Shown one piece after another: positions 20,367 to 29,991 of a stretch of DNA of 45,667 nucleotides (position 1 is the stretch's first letter; each line of letters starts with the position of its first letter). Origin of the DNA: Flavobacteriales bacterium (GTDB lineage Bacteria; Bacteroidota; Bacteroidia; Flavobacteriales_D; Crocinitomicaceae); contig CANJSS010000005.1 of assembly GCA_947476955.1 (NCBI GenBank), positions 1 to 45,667 of the forward strand, given 5' to 3'. Below the pieces are notes generated by a model that worked only from the letters and a program-made list of their open reading frames with translations, was not told the origin of the DNA and did not search any database. A program made the position numbers and the translations under genes.

Positions 20367-23300
20367 ATGTTACGAAAACTTAATTTATTACTAGTAAGTG
20401 TCTTGTTGACAGTTGCTTATGGCCACGCCCAGTCTGGTTTAGGTTCTTTGAAAGGAACCGTGAAAGATGGTGATACCAAACAACCAATTCCATTTGCAAA
20501 GGTCGTTTTGATCCAAAATGGAAACGTTAAAGGAGGAGCGACAACCGATTTTGATGGAAAATTCCAAATTAATTCAGTTGGGGCAGGTTCTTACGATGTA
20601 GAAGTAAGAAATGAAGGAGAGGGTTACCAACCATCTTCTTTAACTGGTGTTATTATTTCAGCTGATAAAATAACGTTCTTGGATAATTTATCTATTTCCA
20701 AGGCGAAAAATATTCAAGATGTTGAAGAGGTTAAAGTTATTGCCTATAAGGTTCCTTTAATTAGCCAAGATGGTGGTGCTTCTGGATCTACTGTAACAAG
20801 AGAAGATATCTCTCGACTTCCTGTTCGTTCTGCGGCTGGAGTTGCATCAACAGTTGGTGGAGTTAGTTCAAATGAAGGTTCAGGAGAAATTTCCGTACGT
20901 GGTTCTCGTTCCGATGGGACTTATTTTTACATTGATGGTATTAAAGTACGTGGATCTTCAAATCTTCCAAAATCGGCAATTGAAGAAGTATCGGTAATCA
21001 CAGGTGGACTTCCTGCAAATTATGGAGATGCAACAGGTGGTATTATATCGGTAACAACGCGTGGACCTTCAGCAAAATACTTTGGTTCTATTGAAGGCGT
21101 TTCTTCTGGTATTTATTTGAATGGTAAAGATCCAGATGGATACGATGGAAAAGTTTTAGGATTGGATAAATTTGGCTATAATGTAATAGAAGGTATGTTC
21201 TCAGGCCCACTTTGGATGCAAAGAGATTCTACTGGAAAGAAAACGAAACCGCGTTTGGGCTTTTTGGTATCTGGAAACTTTACAGATGAATTAGATAGCC
21301 GACCAGTTGCTGGTGGAAATTACAGAATTAAAAAGGATGTAAGAGATGAGTTGCTTTTAAATCCTTTGCGCCCTACATCAACAGGTGATGGAACGTATTA
21401 CAACGCTTCATTCTTGCGAAAGGATGATTTTGAAAAGGTGGCTTGGAGAATGAATGCAAGACGTCAGGTAGTTTCTGCACAAGGAAAAATTGACGTAAAC
21501 ACTGGACCATCTATGAACCTTTCCTTTGGTGGGTCATTAAACTATAGCTCAGGTAATAACTATTCATACAGCGGGTCTTTGCTAAACTTTAATAATTTCG
21601 GTGTTTCAAAATCATTGGACTGGAGAGTCTTTGGTCGTTTGACACAGCGATTTACAAATGATGCAGAAGGAAGTGCATCGAAATTGAAATCATTTGTGTA
21701 TACTTTAATGGTCGATTTTTCGAAAACCAAAGAAGATGTATACGATGCAAACCATAAATATAACATGTTTAATTATGGTCATGTTGGTACATTTACAACA
21801 TCGAGAAGACCAAGTTATGAATTTAACGACATAACAAAAACGTATGTTCACAACGGTTTCCGTGATCTAGAAGTTGCATTTGTTCCTTCTGAGACGAATG
21901 CAGCATTAGCAGCTATTACAACACAATATTATAGTATATACGAAAACAACCCTGAAGGACACTACGAAAATCTATTGCAAATTCAACAAGGAAATGCCTT
22001 GAGAAATGGAGATGCTCCGGCAAGTGTTTATCAAATTTGGGGCAATATCGGAACGCCATACAACTATTTCGGTAAAACTGAAAATGACCAGTTGCGTGGA
22101 ACAGGATCTTTTTCTGTGAATATTGGAGACCACTCTTTGTCTTTTGGATTTGAATTGGAGCAACGGTGGGATAGAGGTTGGACTTCTGGAACAACAACAG
22201 GCGGTGGAACAAATGGTCCTTTGGGAATTTGGAGTATTGCTCGCCAATTAACGAACTTCCATATCGATGAGTTAGATTTGAATAGTGGAACAATTTCCGA
22301 TTCCGGTTCTTTCAAAACAATAACTTACAATAGATTGAATACTGGTTATGCTTACACATCAGGAACTGGTGAATATGGCGGAAAAGAAAATAACGATAAC
22401 CAATCTTTCTTTGATTATAATTTAAGAAAAGAATTAGGTTTGAATGTTGCAGGAAACGACTTTGTGGATATTGACCAATACGACCCTAATATTTTCAAAT
22501 TTGATATGTTCTCACCAGACGAATTGTTGAATGGTGGTAATTCTTTCGTTTCTTATTGGGGGTATGACCATACCGGAGTTAAGGTGCGTGGTACAACGGA
22601 TATCAATAAATATTTTAATGATTTTGATGAGAATGGCAACTACAAACGTTTTGTAGGCGCATTCCAGCCAACATACACAGCTGCTTATTTAATGGATAAG
22701 TTTGCTTTCAACGATATCGTATTCAACGTTGGTGTCCGTGTCGATGTATTTGATGCAAATCAACCTGTTTTGAAAGATCCTTACTTATTCTATAATGCAA
22801 GAACAGTTGCCGAGGCGAAAGAATTAGCAACGAATGATCCTGGTCAATACGATTGGGTTAACATTCCAGATGCAATGGGCGATGATTACACTGTTTATGT
22901 GAATGATGCTAATAATCCTACTGCAATCAATGGTTACCGTGTTGGAACAAATTGGTATAACGCAAATGGTATTCAAATTGAAGATCCAAAGGCAGTTCGT
23001 GGAGCAACAGGAATTCAACCATGGTTATTAAATCCAACTCAAAAAATACCGAGTGCAGATGCATTTGAAGATTATAAAGCACAAGTTAACGTGATGCCTC
23101 GTGTGGCATTCTCATTCCCTATTTCGGATGAAGCTTCTTTCTTCGCGCATTACGATGTTTTGACAAAGCGTCCTACTTCTGGTTTCCGTTTTGACCCGTT
23201 TGAATACCAATTTATTCAATCAAGAAGTGCTATTATCAACAATGCGAATTTGAAACCAGAAACTACAGTGGATTATGAGCTAGGTTTCCAACAAGTACTG

Positions 23301-24143
23301 TCTAAGACATCGTCTTTGAAAATATCAGCTTTCTACCGTGAGCAAAGAAACAATGTTCAATTGATCAATGTTTTTGAGGCATATCCTGCAACGTATCGTA
23401 CCTATGGTAACCGTGATTTTGGAACAGTTAAAGGAATGACAATTGCTTACGACATGCGTAGAACTGGAAATATCCGAATGACTGCAGCGTATACTCTTCA
23501 GTTTGCCGATGGAACTGGTTCGGATGCAACATCTGCTGCCGGTTTGATTAATGCAGGGTTACCTAATTTGCGAAACATCTTCCCTTATTCATTTGACCAA
23601 CGTCATGCTTTTGCAATCACAATGGATTACCGTTATGGTGAAGGAGCAGATTATAACGGTCCATCTATCTCTGGAATCAACATCCTTGAAAATACAGGTT
23701 TGAATATTGTGTCTAATATTTATTCAGGTTCTCCTTATTCTGCCCAAACATTTATTACGGATGAAGGAATTGGAAACTTAAATGCTGGTTTGAGTGGAAC
23801 CCTCAATGGTTCTAGATTACCTTGGTCATACCGTTTAGATCTTCAATTGGATAGAACGTTCAATTTGGAGTTTGGAAAAGCAGAAGATAAAAAGAAAGTA
23901 TCCTTCTTGAATGTTTATATTCGTGTAACCAACTTATTCAATCAATTCAACATATTGAATGTATACAGAGCAACTGGAAACTGGGATGATGATGGTTATT
24001 TAGCTGCCGCAGCAAACCAATCTTCCATTCAAAACCAGTTGGATGAACAAGCATTTAGAGATTATTATACAATGAAAATTCAAAATCCATTCAACATCAG
24101 TTCGCCAAGAACGATTCGTTTGGGAGTCAAATTTGATTTTTAA
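20367..24143 (+). CDS. TonB-dependent outer-membrane receptor with carboxypeptidase-regulatory-like domain
   Basis: The 1258-residue protein starts with a signal peptide (hydrophobic 7-17, cleavage near A-Y-G-H-A-Q). Residues about 25-110 are a CarboxypepD_reg-like beta-sandwich, as in SusC/Oar-type receptors of Bacteroidota. A TonB-box-like E-E-V-K-V-I-A precedes the plug (about 130-235; S-V-R-G-S-R-S-D-G and G-L-P-A-N-Y-G-D-A-T-G-G motifs), then a very large barrel ending in alternating residues and terminal Phe (V-K-F-D-F). No SusD-like gene follows. Instead a T9SS-style cargo begins 20 bases later and a PorV-like protein 22 bases after that, so the three form one transcription unit. The imported or handled substrate is unknown; no Cys-rich or iron-specific signature is visible. 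Confidence 0.92.
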   Translation: MLRKLNLLLVSVLLTVAYGHAQSGLGSLKGTVKDGDTKQPIPFAKVVLIQNGNVKGGATTDFDGKFQINSVGAGSYDVEVRNEGEGYQPSSLTGVIISADKITFLDNLSISKAKNIQDVEEVKVIAYKVPLISQDGGASGSTVTREDISRLPVRSAAGVASTVGGVSSNEGSGEISVRGSRSDGTYFYIDGIKVRGSSNLPKSAIEEVSVITGGLPANYGDATGGIISVTTRGPSAKYFGSIEGVSSGIYLNGKDPDGYDGKVLGLDKFGYNVIEGMFSGPLWMQRDSTGKKTKPRLGFLVSGNFTDELDSRPVAGGNYRIKKDVRDELLLNPLRPTSTGDGTYYNASFLRKDDFEKVAWRMNARRQVVSAQGKIDVNTGPSMNLSFGGSLNYSSGNNYSYSGSLLNFNNFGVSKSLDWRVFGRLTQRFTNDAEGSASKLKSFVYTLMVDFSKTKEDVYDANHKYNMFNYGHVGTFTTSRRPSYEFNDITKTYVHNGFRDLEVAFVPSETNAALAAITTQYYSIYENNPEGHYENLLQIQQGNALRNGDAPASVYQIWGNIGTPYNYFGKTENDQLRGTGSFSVNIGDHSLSFGFELEQRWDRGWTSGTTTGGGTNGPLGIWSIARQLTNFHIDELDLNSGTISDSGSFKTITYNRLNTGYAYTSGTGEYGGKENNDNQSFFDYNLRKELGLNVAGNDFVDIDQYDPNIFKFDMFSPDELLNGGNSFVSYWGYDHTGVKVRGTTDINKYFNDFDENGNYKRFVGAFQPTYTAAYLMDKFAFNDIVFNVGVRVDVFDANQPVLKDPYLFYNARTVAEAKELATNDPGQYDWVNIPDAMGDDYTVYVNDANNPTAINGYRVGTNWYNANGIQIEDPKAVRGATGIQPWLLNPTQKIPSADAFEDYKAQVNVMPRVAFSFPISDEASFFAHYDVLTKRPTSGFRFDPFEYQFIQSRSAIINNANLKPETTVDYELGFQQVLSKTSSLKISAFYREQRNNVQLINVFEAYPATYRTYGNRDFGTVKGMTIAYDMRRTGNIRMTAAYTLQFADGTGSDATSAAGLINAGLPNLRNIFPYSFDQRHAFAITMDYRYGEGADYNGPSISGINILENTGLNIVSNIYSGSPYSAQTFITDEGIGNLNAGLSGTLNGSRLPWSYRLDLQLDRTFNLEFGKAEDKKKVSFLNVYIRVTNLFNQFNILNVYRATGNWDDDGYLAAAANQSSIQNQLDEQAFRDYYTMKIQNPFNISSPRTIRLGVKFDF

Positions 24144-24163
24144 TTCATAATTAAAAAAGCATT

Positions 24164-27100
24164 ATGAAAAAGCAACTAATAGCAATTGCACTGGGAGTTT
24201 CCATGATATGGTCAAACAGCGCGCTTTCGTACTTAGGTCCGAATGATAAAAGTAATAAAGGACCAATTCTCAAAGGAGCAAATTGTTCGCCTTCGACTTC
24301 TAAAATGTATTTAGAATTCAATGATGTAAAAGCATTAATTGAACAGGGTGGTAGTATGTTCCAATACAGAGCCGGAACAGCTGTTGCTTCGTATGAAGTG
24401 CCAAAAGGTACAGGTCTGCATGTAATTTTTGCGGGCGCTCTTTGGATGGGTGGAACGGATGTGAATGGTCAGCTTAAACTGGCTGCATTGCGCTATAGAA
24501 GTGGAAACGATTTTTGGGCAGGTCCTTTGACGGTTTCCCCAGGTAGTGGAAATTATAATCCATTATATCCTGTTGGCGATGATGTTGTAAGAGATTATGG
24601 TGAAGCAAATATTAATCCAGAAGATTGTATTGCATACGATAAATTCTATACAATTCGAAAAGCGGAAATTGTACGTTTTAATATCTGGTATAATTGTAGT
24701 ATTGATCCTGAATTGGATGGCTGTACGGATATCACTGAACCAACTACTGATGAATTAAACCGAATTTATGGTTGGCCAGCTCATGGTGATGTATCAAGAG
24801 GTCAAGATTATTATTTGGCACCTTATTATGATAGAAATGAAGATGGTGTATACAATCCTCAGGATGGTGATCACCCATGGTACGACGATATTTTGGGTAG
24901 AGATGATATAGAATGCGGAATTGATAGAAGAATTTCTTTATTCGGTGACGAAACACATTGGTGGGTATTCAATGACAAAGGTAATATCCATACAGAAACG
25001 AATGGTGATCCAATTGGTATGGAAATTCGTGCTCAAGCGTTTGCTTTTGCTACAAATGACGAGGTGAACCGAATGACATTCTACAACTATGAATTAATTA
25101 ATAGAGGAACTCAGACGCTTTACAACACGTATTTCTCACAATATTTAGATGCAGACGTTGGAAACTATGCAGATGATTATGCTGGTTGTGATGTAGCAAG
25201 AGGATTAGGCTACATGTTCAATGGTGACCTTATAGATGAATCAGATGGTGGGAAGCCCGGGTATGGTGAGAATCCTCCAGCAATTGGCTGTGATTTCTTT
25301 GAAGGTCCTTACCAAGATGCAGATGGAATAGATAATGTTGGTCCTTATTTTGACGAGGCAACAAATACGGAAGTAGTTCCTTCTGTGCTCGAAGCAATCG
25401 CAGGGGATGGTATTGTTTACAGAGGCGTTGGTATCGGTTATTCTGATAATATTATTGACAACGAACGTTTTGGTATGCGTCGATTTACATATTATACTTC
25501 AACATCTCAATTCCCTTACAATGACCCTACTACAGCTGCGCAATACTATAACTTCATGAGTGGTAGCTGGGCAAATGGTTCAGAAATGGTTTATGGTGGT
25601 TTGGGGTATGTTGGATCTACTGGAGCAACGTCAATTCCATCTGATTATATGTTCCCTGGTGATTCAGACCCAATGTTTTGGGCAACGGGAGGTGAAAACA
25701 TGAGCGCAAGTTTTCCAAATGGATGGGATGAATCTACGAACAACAATCCAAAAGGTGACCGACGTTTTGTTCAATCTGCTGGTCCATTTATCTTGAAACC
25801 GGGAGCAGTAAATAACATTACAGTTGGTATTGTATATGGTAGAGGTTCGGATGGTGATTTATTCTCGTCTGTTGAAGCAATGAAAAGAGCAGATACTAAA
25901 GCACAAGCTTTATTTGATGCATGCTTTAAAATTCTTTCTCCACCAGATGCACCAAGATTGACAATTCAAGAATTGGAAAATGAGTTGATTTTAATGATTG
26001 ACAACCCTTCTTCTTCTAATAATTACCAAGAAGGATACGAGGAGATGGACGAAATTAACATTCCGGATCCAACAGTAGATAGATTCTATCGTTTTGAAGG
26101 TTACCAAATCTTCCAATTGAAAGATCTTTCTGTTTCAATTGGAGATATCAACGATCCGGATAAAGCGCGTTTAGTTGCACAATGTGACAAGAAAAACGAC
26201 CAAAGTAGAATCATTAATTTTGAATTTGATGAGGATCTAGGTTTTTCTGTACCTACAGAAAAGGTAGATGGTGCAAATGAAGGGATCAAGCACTCCTTCC
26301 AAGTAAAAGAAGATGTTTTTGCGCAAGGAGATAGACGTTTGATTAACCACAAAACATATTATTATGTGGCGATTGCTTATGCATTCAATGAATTTAAAAA
26401 ATACAATCCAAATGATCCAACAGGATTAGATGGTCAAAAGATGCCATATATTTCATCGCGATTAAATTATGATGGTTCAGCGATTTCTGCAATAACTGCC
26501 ATACCGCATAATCCGACCCCAGAGGCAGGTGGAACAGATCAACGCATTGATTATGGTTCTTCGCCTAGAATTACCCGAGTAGATGGATATGGAAATGGAA
26601 ATCGAGCGTTGGAATTTACGCCATCAACTTTGTCTAAAGTGTTAAACGAAGGCTATGTTGAGCAGCCAGTTTACGATTATGGCGCGGGTCCAATAAATGT
26701 TAAGGTAGTTGACCCTTTAAATTTGGCTAGTGGCTATTATGAATGTAAATTCAGAGACTACGTTGCTTCTTCATGGAATTCTGCAGATACAGCAAGCTGG
26801 ATAATTTACCGATACGCTAGTAAAGGTGGAGCTTTATTGGATTCTGTAACATCTGAAACAACCATTGAAATGGATAACGAACAAATTATTCCACAGTGGG
26901 GAGTATCTGTTCAGATATACCAAGAGCGTTATTATGGTGAAGCCGGGAATCAGTCTGTAAAAGTTACTGATATGATTGAATCGAGTATTGAATTCGCAGA
27001 TTCTTCTAAGCGTTGGTTGACTTCTATTTCAGATAATGATGCATTCTTCCCAACAAACTGGGTTCGTTCAGGGGACTATTCTCCGGTGAATCCTGATGAT

Positions 27101-28348
27101 TGTTTGCCTGATGAATTACCTCATTTTAATCCATGTAATTATAAGGATGAAATAGGACAAGATCCGAGCAAAAAGTTTGCTACGATTCTTGGTGGTGGAA
27201 TTGCTCCACATAGGTTAGTGGGTTACCAAGCGGATTACATGCCAATGGCATACTTTAATCTTACAAATCCGGGATCTTCAAAAAATAATGCTTCTATTAG
27301 CTTCTTGCCAAGTGTGAACATTGTTATCACTTCTGACAAGTCTCTTTGGACACGTTGTCCAGTAATTGAATTGGGAAGAACACCAGCTTTAAATGTTGGC
27401 GGAGCAGCAGGTGGCGCACGAAGAAAAAGTTTGAATGTTGGTAAAGATGGTAAACCAGATGGAACAGTAGACGCAAGCGGTAATCCAGAAACAGGAATGG
27501 GATGGTTCCCAGGTTATGCAGTAGATATGGAATCTGGAGCACGTTTATACATGGCATTCGGTGAAAATTCCTTCTTGGGTGGCGAAAATGGTGCTGATAT
27601 GATTTGGAATCCAACAGAACGTTTGGTAAATGGAACAGGTTCTCCTTTAATGGGTGGAATGCACGCTATTTATGTATACAGTTACAACCAAAAGACAATT
27701 AACAATTTTGCTTCAGGCTTTGACTTCCCAGCATATATTAAAGGAGATGCAGAAACATTATCTGGTAATTTCTTGTACCAAAAAATGTTGGAAATAGAAA
27801 CAAACAGTTCAACTGCGAAGCGGGAGGTTTATGGAAGTTTATCTTGGGTTGCATATCCAATGCTTGCACCAGATCAAGAAGTTAACTCTACAGACGTTAC
27901 AATTCGTTTGAGAATTAATAAAGAATATAAGAATTTTGTAGCAACAAATGATAATGGTGGAAAACCGATGTATTCTTGGTCAATGGATGACATTTCAACA
28001 GTTACAGCGAGCCAGGATCAATTGAAAGATGCATTAAAAATGATAAATGTTGTTCCAAATCCTTATTATGCATTCTCAGAATACGAAAGAAGCAGATTGG
28101 ATACACGTGTTAAAATCACAAATCTACCTGAAAAATGTACTGTGAAGATTTACACTGTAAATGGTAAATTGGTTCGTACATTTAAAAAAGATAGTCCAGT
28201 GACTTCTATAGACTGGGATTTAAATAATGCAAAAGCTATTCCGGTTGCAGGAGGTGTTTATTTAATTCATGTCGATGTCCCTGAGGTTGGAGAAGTAGTT
28301 TTGAAATTCTTCGGTGGCATGAGACAAGTCGATTTACAAGGAATTTAA
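24164..28348 (+). CDS. Large secreted protein with type A-like T9SS C-terminal domain
   Basis: A 1394-residue protein with a signal peptide (M-K-K-Q then a hydrophobic run ending about residue 22). The region around residues 75-115 has an A-G-A-L-W-M-G-G-T-D pattern that I recall from very large uncharacterised Bacteroidota proteins. Residues 223-234 (D-R-N-E-D-G-V-Y-N-P-Q-D) form a dockerin/EF-hand-like calcium loop. The last 100 residues, from N-V-V-P-N-P at 1295, form a beta-sandwich with K-I-Y-T-V-N-G-K-L-V and G-G-V-Y-L-I motifs, like the sorting domain that directs proteins through type IX secretion, but with an unusual tail G-G-M-R-Q-V-D-L-Q-G-I. No catalytic motif was recognised. It lies between the TonB receptor and PorV-like genes with gaps of about 20 bases. 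Likely surface-exposed or released. Confidence 0.8.
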   Translation: MKKQLIAIALGVSMIWSNSALSYLGPNDKSNKGPILKGANCSPSTSKMYLEFNDVKALIEQGGSMFQYRAGTAVASYEVPKGTGLHVIFAGALWMGGTDVNGQLKLAALRYRSGNDFWAGPLTVSPGSGNYNPLYPVGDDVVRDYGEANINPEDCIAYDKFYTIRKAEIVRFNIWYNCSIDPELDGCTDITEPTTDELNRIYGWPAHGDVSRGQDYYLAPYYDRNEDGVYNPQDGDHPWYDDILGRDDIECGIDRRISLFGDETHWWVFNDKGNIHTETNGDPIGMEIRAQAFAFATNDEVNRMTFYNYELINRGTQTLYNTYFSQYLDADVGNYADDYAGCDVARGLGYMFNGDLIDESDGGKPGYGENPPAIGCDFFEGPYQDADGIDNVGPYFDEATNTEVVPSVLEAIAGDGIVYRGVGIGYSDNIIDNERFGMRRFTYYTSTSQFPYNDPTTAAQYYNFMSGSWANGSEMVYGGLGYVGSTGATSIPSDYMFPGDSDPMFWATGGENMSASFPNGWDESTNNNPKGDRRFVQSAGPFILKPGAVNNITVGIVYGRGSDGDLFSSVEAMKRADTKAQALFDACFKILSPPDAPRLTIQELENELILMIDNPSSSNNYQEGYEEMDEINIPDPTVDRFYRFEGYQIFQLKDLSVSIGDINDPDKARLVAQCDKKNDQSRIINFEFDEDLGFSVPTEKVDGANEGIKHSFQVKEDVFAQGDRRLINHKTYYYVAIAYAFNEFKKYNPNDPTGLDGQKMPYISSRLNYDGSAISAITAIPHNPTPEAGGTDQRIDYGSSPRITRVDGYGNGNRALEFTPSTLSKVLNEGYVEQPVYDYGAGPINVKVVDPLNLASGYYECKFRDYVASSWNSADTASWIIYRYASKGGALLDSVTSETTIEMDNEQIIPQWGVSVQIYQERYYGEAGNQSVKVTDMIESSIEFADSSKRWLTSISDNDAFFPTNWVRSGDYSPVNPDDCLPDELPHFNPCNYKDEIGQDPSKKFATILGGGIAPHRLVGYQADYMPMAYFNLTNPGSSKNNASISFLPSVNIVITSDKSLWTRCPVIELGRTPALNVGGAAGGARRKSLNVGKDGKPDGTVDASGNPETGMGWFPGYAVDMESGARLYMAFGENSFLGGENGADMIWNPTERLVNGTGSPLMGGMHAIYVYSYNQKTINNFASGFDFPAYIKGDAETLSGNFLYQKMLEIETNSSTAKREVYGSLSWVAYPMLAPDQEVNSTDVTIRLRINKEYKNFVATNDNGGKPMYSWSMDDISTVTASQDQLKDALKMINVVPNPYYAFSEYERSRLDTRVKITNLPEKCTVKIYTVNGKLVRTFKKDSPVTSIDWDLNNAKAIPVAGGVYLIHVDVPEVGEVVLKFFGGMRQVDLQGI

Positions 28349-28370
28349 TCATTGATCTAAACAAGTTGAA

Positions 28371-29435
28371 ATGAAAAATTTGATCATAAATATTAAAAAT
28401 GTATTAGTTGTTGGAGTTGTAGTTTGCAGCTTCGCAGCGCGTGCAGGTAATGAAGACCGTGTTGGTTCTGCAGGGGCTTCTCATTTATTAGTTAATCCAT
28501 GGGCACGAAGTGCAGCTGGTGGTGACGCGGGAATTGCCTCCGTAAATGGAATTGAAGCAACTTATGTAAATATTGCTGGACTGGCATTTTCGGACAAAAC
28601 CCAAATTAAGTTCAATTACAGTAATTGGATGGGGAATGCCGGTATATCTTTTAATAGCGCTGGTTTTTCGCAACGTCTATCTGAGTCAGATGTAATTGCG
28701 GTGAGTGTGCAATCCATGAATTTTGGAGATGTTCAAATTACAACAGTTGCAAATCCAGAGGGGAATATCGGTTTCTTTTCACCAAGAGCAAATATTTTCA
28801 ATGTTGGATATGCACGTGCATTTTCTGCTTCTATTTATGGAGGAATAAACTTTAAAGTTATTTCAGAGAATATTTCCAACTTGAAAGCAAATGGTATTGC
28901 TATAGATGCAGGTATTCGTTATGTAACTGGTGAGCAAGATCACATCAAGTTTGGAATTACACTTAAAAATGTAGGTCCTGTAATGCGCTACAAAGGGGAT
29001 GGTTTAGCCCAACAAGTATCCTACCTTTCTACCGGATTTAATGGTTCACTTGAGGAAAGATCTTCTACTTTTGAAATGCCTTCCTTATTATCTATCGGTG
29101 GTTCTTATGATTTCATTTTTAATGAAAAAAGTAAGTTGAACTTGGCATTGGGCTTCACGGCTAATTCTTTTTCAAATGATCAATACCGATTAGGATTAGA
29201 TTATGCGATGACGAATGATAAAGTTGCTTTCAATTTCCGAGCGGGATATGTTTACGAGAAAAATTTATTCTCAGCTGAGAATCGCTCAAATGCATTGGTT
29301 GGACCTACAGCTGGGTTTTCAGTGGATGCTTTAGTAGGAAAGAACAAAAGTGCACTTGGAATTGAATATGCAACTCGTTTAGCAGGAGTATTCGGTGTAA
29401 TTCATACAATCGGTGCAACCATCAATTTGAAATAA
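28371..29435 (+). CDS. PorV/PorQ-family outer-membrane protein
   Basis: The 354-residue protein has a signal peptide cleaved near A-A-R-A-G and the PorV/PorQ layout: an N-terminal G-S-A-G-A-S-H-L-L followed by W-A-R-S-A-A-G-G-D-A-G-I-A, a Y-V-N-I-A-G-L-A segment that corresponds to the family's N-P-A motif region, and then repeated amphipathic beta strands ending I-N-L-K, as in FadL-like barrels. PorV escorts T9SS cargo from the SprA translocon to the attachment complex. This gene is not next to other core T9SS genes but is third in an operon with a candidate cargo, so it is probably a dedicated paralogue. That role is inferred from position only. Confidence 0.85.
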   Translation: MKNLIINIKNVLVVGVVVCSFAARAGNEDRVGSAGASHLLVNPWARSAAGGDAGIASVNGIEATYVNIAGLAFSDKTQIKFNYSNWMGNAGISFNSAGFSQRLSESDVIAVSVQSMNFGDVQITTVANPEGNIGFFSPRANIFNVGYARAFSASIYGGINFKVISENISNLKANGIAIDAGIRYVTGEQDHIKFGITLKNVGPVMRYKGDGLAQQVSYLSTGFNGSLEERSSTFEMPSLLSIGGSYDFIFNEKSKLNLALGFTANSFSNDQYRLGLDYAMTNDKVAFNFRAGYVYEKNLFSAENRSNALVGPTAGFSVDALVGKNKSALGIEYATRLAGVFGVIHTIGATINLK

Positions 29436-29462: not shown

Positions 29463-29496
29463 AAGAGAGCTCCAAAGGCTCTCTTCGTTTTTTTTT
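29463..29496 (+). terminator. Intrinsic terminator after the TonB/cargo/PorV unit
   Basis: An 8-bp perfect stem (29463-29470 with 29478-29485, AAGAGAGC/GCTCTCTT) with a 7-base loop is followed at 29488-29496 by nine T residues. It ends the three-gene unit 28 bases after its last stop codon. Because a consensus promoter sits just upstream, it may also act as an early terminator in the greA leader. Confidence 0.8.
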
Positions 29497-29517: not shown

Positions 29518-29991
29518 ATGTCACAAATAAGTTATTATACAGCAGAAGGTTTAAAAAAATTAAAGGATGAATTGCACCTAATGAAAACAATTCAACGTCC
29601 TTCGATATCAGATCAAATTGCGGAAGCTCGGGATAAAGGGGATTTATCTGAAAATGCAGAATACGATGCAGCTAAAGAGGCACAAGGTTTGTTAGAGATG
29701 AAGATTTCAAAATTAGAAGCAATAATTTCTAATGCGCGATTAATCGACAATACGAGTATCGATAATTCAAAAGTTTTTATCCTTTCAAAAGTGAAGATCA
29801 AAAATATTTCGAATGGAATGGAAGTGGAATATACGTTGGTTGCAGAGAATGAAGCGGACTTAAAGGAAAAGAAGATTTCTATTGACTCTCCATTTGGCAA
29901 AGGTTTATTAGGTAAAAAACAAGGAGATATTGCAGATATTCATACACCAAATGGTGTCTTACAATTTGAAATTATTGAAATTTCTAGATAA
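29518..29991 (+). CDS. greA: Transcription elongation factor GreA
   Basis: The 157 residues match GreA. The N-terminal coiled-coil finger holds the tip motif D-K-G-D-L-S-E-N-A-E-Y (about residues 39-49) whose acidic residues reach into the RNA polymerase secondary channel; the C-terminal FKBP-like domain ends F-E-I-I-E-I. GreA stimulates transcript cleavage by backtracked polymerase. The start ATG is preceded by a short AT-rich leader that begins at the 29463-29496 hairpin. The stop codon shares one base with the ATG of the next gene (TAATG), so the HIT gene is translationally coupled. GreB is a less likely name because of the operon context and lengths. Confidence 0.95.
   Translation: MSQISYYTAEGLKKLKDELHLMKTIQRPSISDQIAEARDKGDLSENAEYDAAKEAQGLLEMKISKLEAIISNARLIDNTSIDNSKVFILSKVKIKNISNGMEVEYTLVAENEADLKEKKISIDSPFGKGLLGKKQGDIADIHTPNGVLQFEIIEISR

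Follow-up and report, generated by a model that had tools for sequence, protein, structure and literature searches.

A conserved three-gene unit of a TonB-dependent receptor, a type IX secretion system cargo and a PorV-family barrel in Bacteroidota, with a possible role in uptake

What common task would bring together the genes of a TonB-dependent receptor, of a large, probably secreted protein with a C-terminal domain (CTD) of type IX secretion system (T9SS) type, and of a barrel of the PorV/PorQ family? This question is raised by three consecutive genes in a contig of Crocinitomicaceae (CANJSS010000005.1), of which a stretch of 45,667 nt, hereafter the window, was analysed; all coordinates refer to that whole stretch, and "same class" stands throughout for Bacteroidia. 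SusCD is regarded as the signature nutrient importer of Bacteroidota, and the answer that we consider rather probable is that the middle protein (the cargo), exported by the T9SS and held by the barrel, serves the TonB channel as a capture protein or a lid, in the manner of SusCD and with other parts.

The original prediction, made from the letters of the DNA, had described a receptor, a CTD protein and a PorV/PorQ-family barrel encoded in one direction, 20 and 22 bases apart and closed by a strong terminator; open reading frames (ORFs), Pfam and NCBIfam bear out this layout (Table 1). It had also held that the middle gene is not SusD-like and that the unit is not a SusCD pair; indeed, no SusD family is found among the Pfam matches of the cargo down to E 1. 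The signal peptide of the cargo looks typical (judged by eye, without a predictor) and contains no lipobox; among 24 aligned homologous rows, 4 of which start behind the signal peptide, only the start-truncated L113 fit the lipobox pattern. The receptor carries CarboxypepD_reg and Plug domains, both above the Pfam cut-offs. The NCBIfam library includes a SusC/RagA model, and no such model was matched in a scan of the receptor down to E 1; a sequence search of the PDB gave no match for either the receptor or the cargo. Membership of the unit in SusCD was rejected on these grounds, namely no SusD domain, no lipobox and no SusC model. The two systems resemble each other in having adjacent genes for a TonB-dependent barrel and a large partner, many paralogs per genome and, in two cases described below, a place in glycan loci; they differ in that the cargo CTD points to export by the T9SS instead of the lipoprotein route and in that a third gene, the PorV-family barrel, is present.

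Gene order is conserved around the cargo. The cargo was matched in 97 of 99 relatives, and a survey of the best 80 named loci retrieved with it gave 41 complete receptor-cargo-barrel sets and 30 loci cut at an edge. A search of 392 genomes spread over the phylum with a profile of 24 cargo proteins gave matches in 216, many of them restricted to portions of the cargo, for instance the CTD. The listing of this search includes same-class genomes of which five, from one family (f18), were matched strongly, 20 weakly and 20 not at all; a further 156 unmatched genomes stand outside the listing. We then have 40 distant loci, chosen by cargo match with their neighbours unseen and not at random, of which five belong to f18 and 35 lie outside the class. 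The order and strand of receptor, cargo and barrel are complete in 38 of the 40; one gap measures 243 bases and all others fewer than 150, and the two incomplete loci (L167 and L172) end at an edge. The receptor stands immediately upstream of the cargo in 39 of the 40 loci, the remaining one being truncated by a contig end. The co-occurrence of the three neighbours, which the original prediction had proposed to look for across Bacteroidota, is thus found across classes, and adjacency is far from rare. Such an order in distant genomes places the unit beyond chance, and on this distribution the unit is old.

The barrel itself belongs to the PorV family (Table 1; cut-off 90 bits) and stays under each of the specific cut-offs: 77.6 bits against 250 for PorV (NF033710), 75.1 against 220 for PorQ (NF033711), and 48.5 against 325 for PorV2. 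It was, on these cut-offs, rejected as PorV, PorQ or PorV2 proper, and it falls in a clade apart from the PorV and PorQ-like groups. PorV was the sole match of a PDB sequence search with the barrel; a model of a relative's barrel (L046) has PorV structures (8gl6_F and 6h3i_F) as best fold matches, and in a CTD-barrel read-through chain model of mean predicted local distance difference test (pLDDT) 60 and predicted template modelling score 0.54, the barrel portion matches PorV as well. In a quick tree of 81 barrels, including all 39 from distant loci and leaving out L256 and L257, the 46 barrels beside a window-type cargo fall on one side of a branch with an SH-aLRT (approximate likelihood ratio test) support of 99.8, and the barrels of other receptor-CTD protein-barrel triples (20 rows, support 90) are separate from them, as are the PorV, PorQ-like and PorV2-like groups, which were labelled by neighbours and score, L247 alone having been checked against PorU. 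One distant locus, L189, has a barrel and a CTD end that belong to another module family. A barrel ortholog (at least 214 bits, the next paralogs reaching at most 53) was found in 94 of the 99 relatives, with the cargo gene or its end directly upstream in 90; in the other four (G056, G067, G085 and G095), contig ends cut the upstream side. In nine relatives, 1.2-2.3 kb separate the listed cargo match from the barrel since the match stops short, the open frames being longer. Because this separate clade is tied to the cargo, the barrel is likely dedicated to it.

Two relatives (L197, G084:C30; L199, G077:C1) have their cargo split over four and two ORFs, respectively, between an intact receptor and an intact barrel; these may be decayed genes or sequence errors.

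The end of the cargo tells more about what the barrel might do. The original prediction of a T9SS-like CTD stands as regards family, the CTD matching the end of the PorZ model with 34.5 bits (the whole-protein cut-off of that model being 260), and does not stand as a canonical type A signal, with 19.1 bits against a cut-off of 23 for TIGR04183; no type B CTD (CHU_C or TIGR model) was matched in the cargo down to E 1. The cargo was ruled out as PorZ or PorU, as the CTD alone matches, far under the cut-offs of the models. Among the 24 homologs, mean pairwise identity is 68% for the CTD, 70% for its 13-residue tail and 54-64% for the body. The tail runs about ten residues past the ends of PorU and PorZ. 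All but two of the 40 distant cargos have it, the exceptions being L167, which is truncated, and L189, which has no tail; the cargos of sister modules stop shortly after a Lys near the C-terminus; a Lys near the C-terminus of the CTD touches PorV in solved complexes (PMC10994853). A CTD nearer to PorZ than to type A is also seen in six of seven other module cargos scanned. According to a review, PorU and PorZ are exported by the T9SS, keep their CTDs and stay bound to PorV and PorQ, and cognate PorV-like barrels are proposed there to shield CTDs from cleavage (PMC10202324). The window's own genome offers a contrast: a 537-aa protein (G000:C7, L012:7834-9447) joins the N-terminal domain of the cargo to a canonical type A CTD (39 bits) on a contig with no PorV-family gene; by its sequence, this protein takes that domain along the usual T9SS path. 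In view of the PorU/PorZ precedent, the conserved CTD with its extra tail and this contrasting paralog, we infer that the cargo stays on its own barrel with its CTD uncleaved.

The T9SS is at hand for such an export. The window's own genome (2.7 Mb in 179 contigs) has SprA (2435 bits), PorU, PorZ and further PorV-family genes, and SprA was present in all 41 carriers tested; of 20 same-class genomes in which no cargo was matched, 19 have it too. The proposed course of events would be the following: by virtue of its CTD, the cargo would use the type IX translocon (SprA) to cross the outer membrane; its own PorV-family barrel would extract it and keep hold of it, as PorZ stays on PorQ and PorU on PorV; the anchored cargo would then serve the neighbouring TonB channel as a capture protein or a lid, presumably touching the receptor and taking part in import, the ligand of the window copy perhaps being a glycan or something similar. 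The set would thereby achieve what SusCD does, the lipoprotein being replaced by a partner that the T9SS exports and a barrel anchors.

One has to keep in mind that the window-type unit is not the only one of its kind. PorV-family genes were counted in a sample of 148 genomes, where counts near 13 are lower bounds: 33 same-class genomes with matches have 1-6 (median 4) and one more has none, the median is 11 in 81 genomes outside the class, and of 30 genomes of family f29, 14 have sub-threshold matches and 16 none. This family is probably Chlorobiota, and the passages of PMC12611786 on Chlorobiota state that they lack SprA and SusCD. Around the PorV-family genes of three genomes (G128, G408 and G393), 19 of 36 regions hold a receptor-CTD protein-barrel triple (nine, nine and one, respectively), that of L283 containing a 1.6-kb gap. 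The other 17 comprise two regions with a CTD protein of PorU size, two with a receptor and no CTD protein, two with a CTD protein and no receptor, ten with the barrel alone and one without any match. Counting the window-type copies, G128 and G408 have ten modules apiece and G393 has two, L189 included. Nine sister cargos have no Pfam family beyond sub-threshold matches of CTD type. Across paralogous triples within a genome, barrel distances follow receptor distances (Spearman 0.59 and 0.72, reached by none of 1000 permutations) and those of the cargo body (0.63 and 0.47, reached by 0 and 2 of 1000); eight of the ten G128 modules pair with the same G408 module by barrel, CTD, body and receptor alike. 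Judged by these distances, the parts of a module are co-inherited.

Two of the sister sets have a further gene beside or within them: a PPIC-type prolyl isomerase (L296:9494-11242, 43.5 bits) lies behind one triple, and a weak PPIC-type match under the cut-off (L309:4314-6101) lies inside another set.

Some sister modules sit among genes of sugar metabolism. The flanks of seven picked loci, chosen partly for their sugar-related look, were scanned with Pfam. Behind the triple of L301/L313 come a T9SS-tailed protein matching CBM48, a regulator of LacI type and three members of the alpha-amylase family, of which one is T9SS-tailed. In L309, where an additional gene separates the receptor from the cargo, the set has behind it an ABC solute-binding protein and two permeases, with a GH130 phosphorylase one gene beyond. 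An ABC-type permease stands close behind the triple of L277/L312 together with a xylose-isomerase-like protein, and L290 has a xylose-isomerase-like protein as well; nothing sugar-related appeared in the Pfam scan of the flanks of L279, L293 and L296. SusD (PF07980) is scarce in 22 carriers outside the class (median 1, ten without any, maximum 7), compared with a median of 16.5 (range 1-41) in 14 genomes of the same class where the cargo was not matched; a single SusD match occurs in the window's own genome. The analogy of the unit with SusCD gains support from the two sister triples in glycan loci and from the low number of SusD genes in carriers outside the class.

As for the cargo body, its N-terminal domain, in an AF2 model of mean pLDDT 69, resembles the N-domains of GH94, GH15 and GH116 (VIA Z 12.3-15.2, root-mean-square deviation 3.2-4.1 over 228-263 residues), the next fold having a Z of 9.5. 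This supersandwich match comes from VIA only; Foldseek gave nothing below E 0.01 for the cargo body against the PDB, the best E being 0.015. No GH94, GH15 or GH116 catalytic domain was matched in the cargo, the rest of the protein beyond the N-domain having been barely tested. On this predicted fold and the sister loci, we would guess that the window cargo binds sugars. The own genome has a second full-length cargo paralog (G000:C23, L011:8451-12518), 60% identical, which keeps the CTD tail and has neither receptor nor barrel alongside.

Several results weigh against a barrel-held partner of an importer. In nine of the 80 named loci, the stretch behind the cargo is long enough for a barrel gene and contains none, and the window's own genome carries an orphan cargo. 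Four of the nine (L059, L062, L063 and L064) have the receptor, and their genomes hold a barrel elsewhere, which in L209 and L210 immediately follows a different copy of the cargo; L082 and L116 have neither receptor nor barrel; L104, L114 and L115 have their receptor side cut, L104 with a barrel just before the cargo copy. The nine include, then, orphan-type copies and extra receptor-cargo copies. Distances of CTD and barrel are weakly correlated (0.34 and 0.16, values reached by 28 and 203 of 1000 permutations). One sister cargo (L292) weakly matches the type B model CHU_C, and another (L280) is neither PorZ- nor type A-like. Clear glycan loci make up two of the seven sister loci scanned, and the window copy, whose barrel is single and nearly universal among the relatives, sits among housekeeping-type genes, outside any glycan locus. 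The five f18 genomes combine the cargo with 4-41 SusD matches, and G128, with its ten triples, also has seven. The fold of the N-domain depends on a middling model that no Foldseek match below E 0.01 backs. Given the loci without a barrel and the orphan cargo, one barrel may serve several cargo copies. The original prediction that the PorV-like protein is dedicated to its cargo, and the overall interpretation with it, are upheld in part, by the conserved order and by the barrel clade tied to the cargo, and are qualified by these same nine loci and the orphan.

These points favour, in part, a different view, in which the barrel is a T9SS shuttle only, the cargo being processed or released as a free surface or secreted protein and the receptor being co-transcribed for the same nutrient without forming a complex. 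PorV is a shuttle, and cargos of type B use cognate PorP/SprF shuttles, which also fix their location and one of which can serve an orphan cargo, according to passages of PMC12618676; the weak CTD-barrel correlation and the cargo copies without an adjacent barrel agree with it. However, a CTD slightly better conserved than the body and extended by a conserved tail would be odd for a piece that is cleaved off, this CTD is PorZ-like and under the type A cut-off, and receptor and barrel strongly co-diverge in the sister triples; we hold release by a mere shuttle to be unlikely. The pairing of cargo and shuttle genes does recall SprB/SprF and PG1035/PorP/PorE of type B, from which the unit differs in its CTD, which is not of type B, in a barrel of the PorV/PorQ family and in having a TonB receptor as partner. 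A barrel-held cargo is closer to PorZ-PorQ and PorU-PorV, where a protein with a CTD of the retained type is likewise paired with a PorV-family barrel, although the cargo body is unrelated to them by profile, the barrel clade is separate and a receptor is added.

Less likely still, in our view, is a complex for surface assembly or envelope biogenesis, with the cargo and barrel forming a canopy like BamH on BamG and the TonB-type barrel acting in structure or signalling, not import. BamH is a surface lipoprotein. The model would be BamG, a FadL-family barrel whose loops hold BamH (in the passages of PMC12578637 and PMC12611786 concerned), and it would suit a window-type family that is nearly universal among the relatives searched and whose neighbours, where they recur in distant loci, seem to be of housekeeping type; this pair, however, belongs to the BAM complex, where there is no TonB receptor, and the receptor here has a Plug domain, while many paralogous triples per genome with differing cargo bodies, two of them in glycan loci, fit nutrient uptake better. 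Finally, it is most improbable that the TonB-dependent barrel assists the secretion or assembly of the cargo, in the way that Oar of Myxococcus is reported to act on PopC (PMC6434023): receptor and cargo stay strictly side by side in the distant loci, which would fit, but SprA in all the carriers tested and a T9SS-type CTD make a second export path unneeded.

The original prediction knew of no named system with this set, and searches of the open-licence papers in PubMed Central gave, among the matches listed, no description of a receptor-CTD protein-PorV set. We regard as evenly balanced the broader proposal that the unit represents an undescribed, phylum-wide class of TonB uptake modules with a T9SS-exported, barrel-held capture protein or lid, which would replace SusCD outside Bacteroidia, reach about ten modules per genome, lie in some cases in polysaccharide loci and perhaps predate the expansion of SusCD in Bacteroidia. 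If it holds, the T9SS would export parts of import machines, many of the PorV-family genes of genomes outside the class would have a function, and the modules would show where glycan uptake may be sought in lineages that have hardly any SusD genes or none; absence from model species, if such is the case, would explain why they went unnoticed.

Table 1. Features of the three-gene unit in the window, with the evidence for each.
Feature	Position	Strand	Evidence
TonB-dependent receptor, 1258 aa	20367..24143	+	ORF, Pfam; no SusC/RagA model among NCBIfam matches
CarboxypepD_reg domain of receptor, residues 27-102	20445..20672	+	PF13620, 51.5 bits, cut-off 32.3
TonB plug domain of receptor, residues 137-226	20775..21044	+	PF07715, 40.7 bits, cut-off 23.9
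Cargo, 1394 aa, signal peptide (by eye) and T9SS-like CTD	24164..28348	+	ORF; no Pfam or NCBIfam family above cut-off
Cargo N-terminal domain, residues ~44-588, predicted beta-supersandwich	24293..25927	+	AF2 model, VIA
Cargo FnIII-like domain, residues ~591-792	25934..26539	+	VIA Z 7-9.5 to FnIII-type domains
Cargo CTD core, residues 1286-1381, PorZ/PorU-like	28019..28306	+	Profile matches; 68% mean pairwise identity, 24 homologs
C-terminal CTD tail, residues 1382-1394	28307..28345	+	Extends past PorU and PorZ ends
PorV/PorQ-family barrel, own clade, 354 aa	28371..29435	+	ORF; NF033709, 143.9 bits; clade in tree
Near-invariant mature barrel start GNEDRVGSAGA	28446..28478	+	Barrel alignment
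Terminator-like hairpin, 9-pair stem then T8	29463..29485	+	Hairpin search

The region as a whole contains six terminator-like sites, compared with 6.5 in shuffled sequences, so that their number is not above chance. Behind the unit lies greA (29518-29991). The same holds for L157, a locus from a different family within the class, and for L209 and L210, which have a HIT-type protein after greA; this recurrence argues for vertical inheritance of the neighbourhood. Near 16 of 38 distant loci (within L154-L193), a loosely kept group of genes recurs, among them one for a TPR lipoprotein with a CxxCH motif and some 720 aa in length; in 11 cases the group stands right behind the barrel.

Elsewhere in the window's own genome, contig C135 (G000:C135, L014) has a PorV-family gene and, directly behind it, a gene for a PorU-like protein of very large size. 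PorU proper is a different protein, encoded on C64, and the two genes of C135 are, on their sequences, a second PorU-type/PorV-type pair. As for the database records, CP034120.1 (L101), titled as a chromosome of Glaciecola amylolytica, contains a Fluviicola-like triple, and the titles of metagenome-assembled genomes named Chitinophaga pinensis, Chryseobacterium gleum and Planktophila lacus also look wrong.

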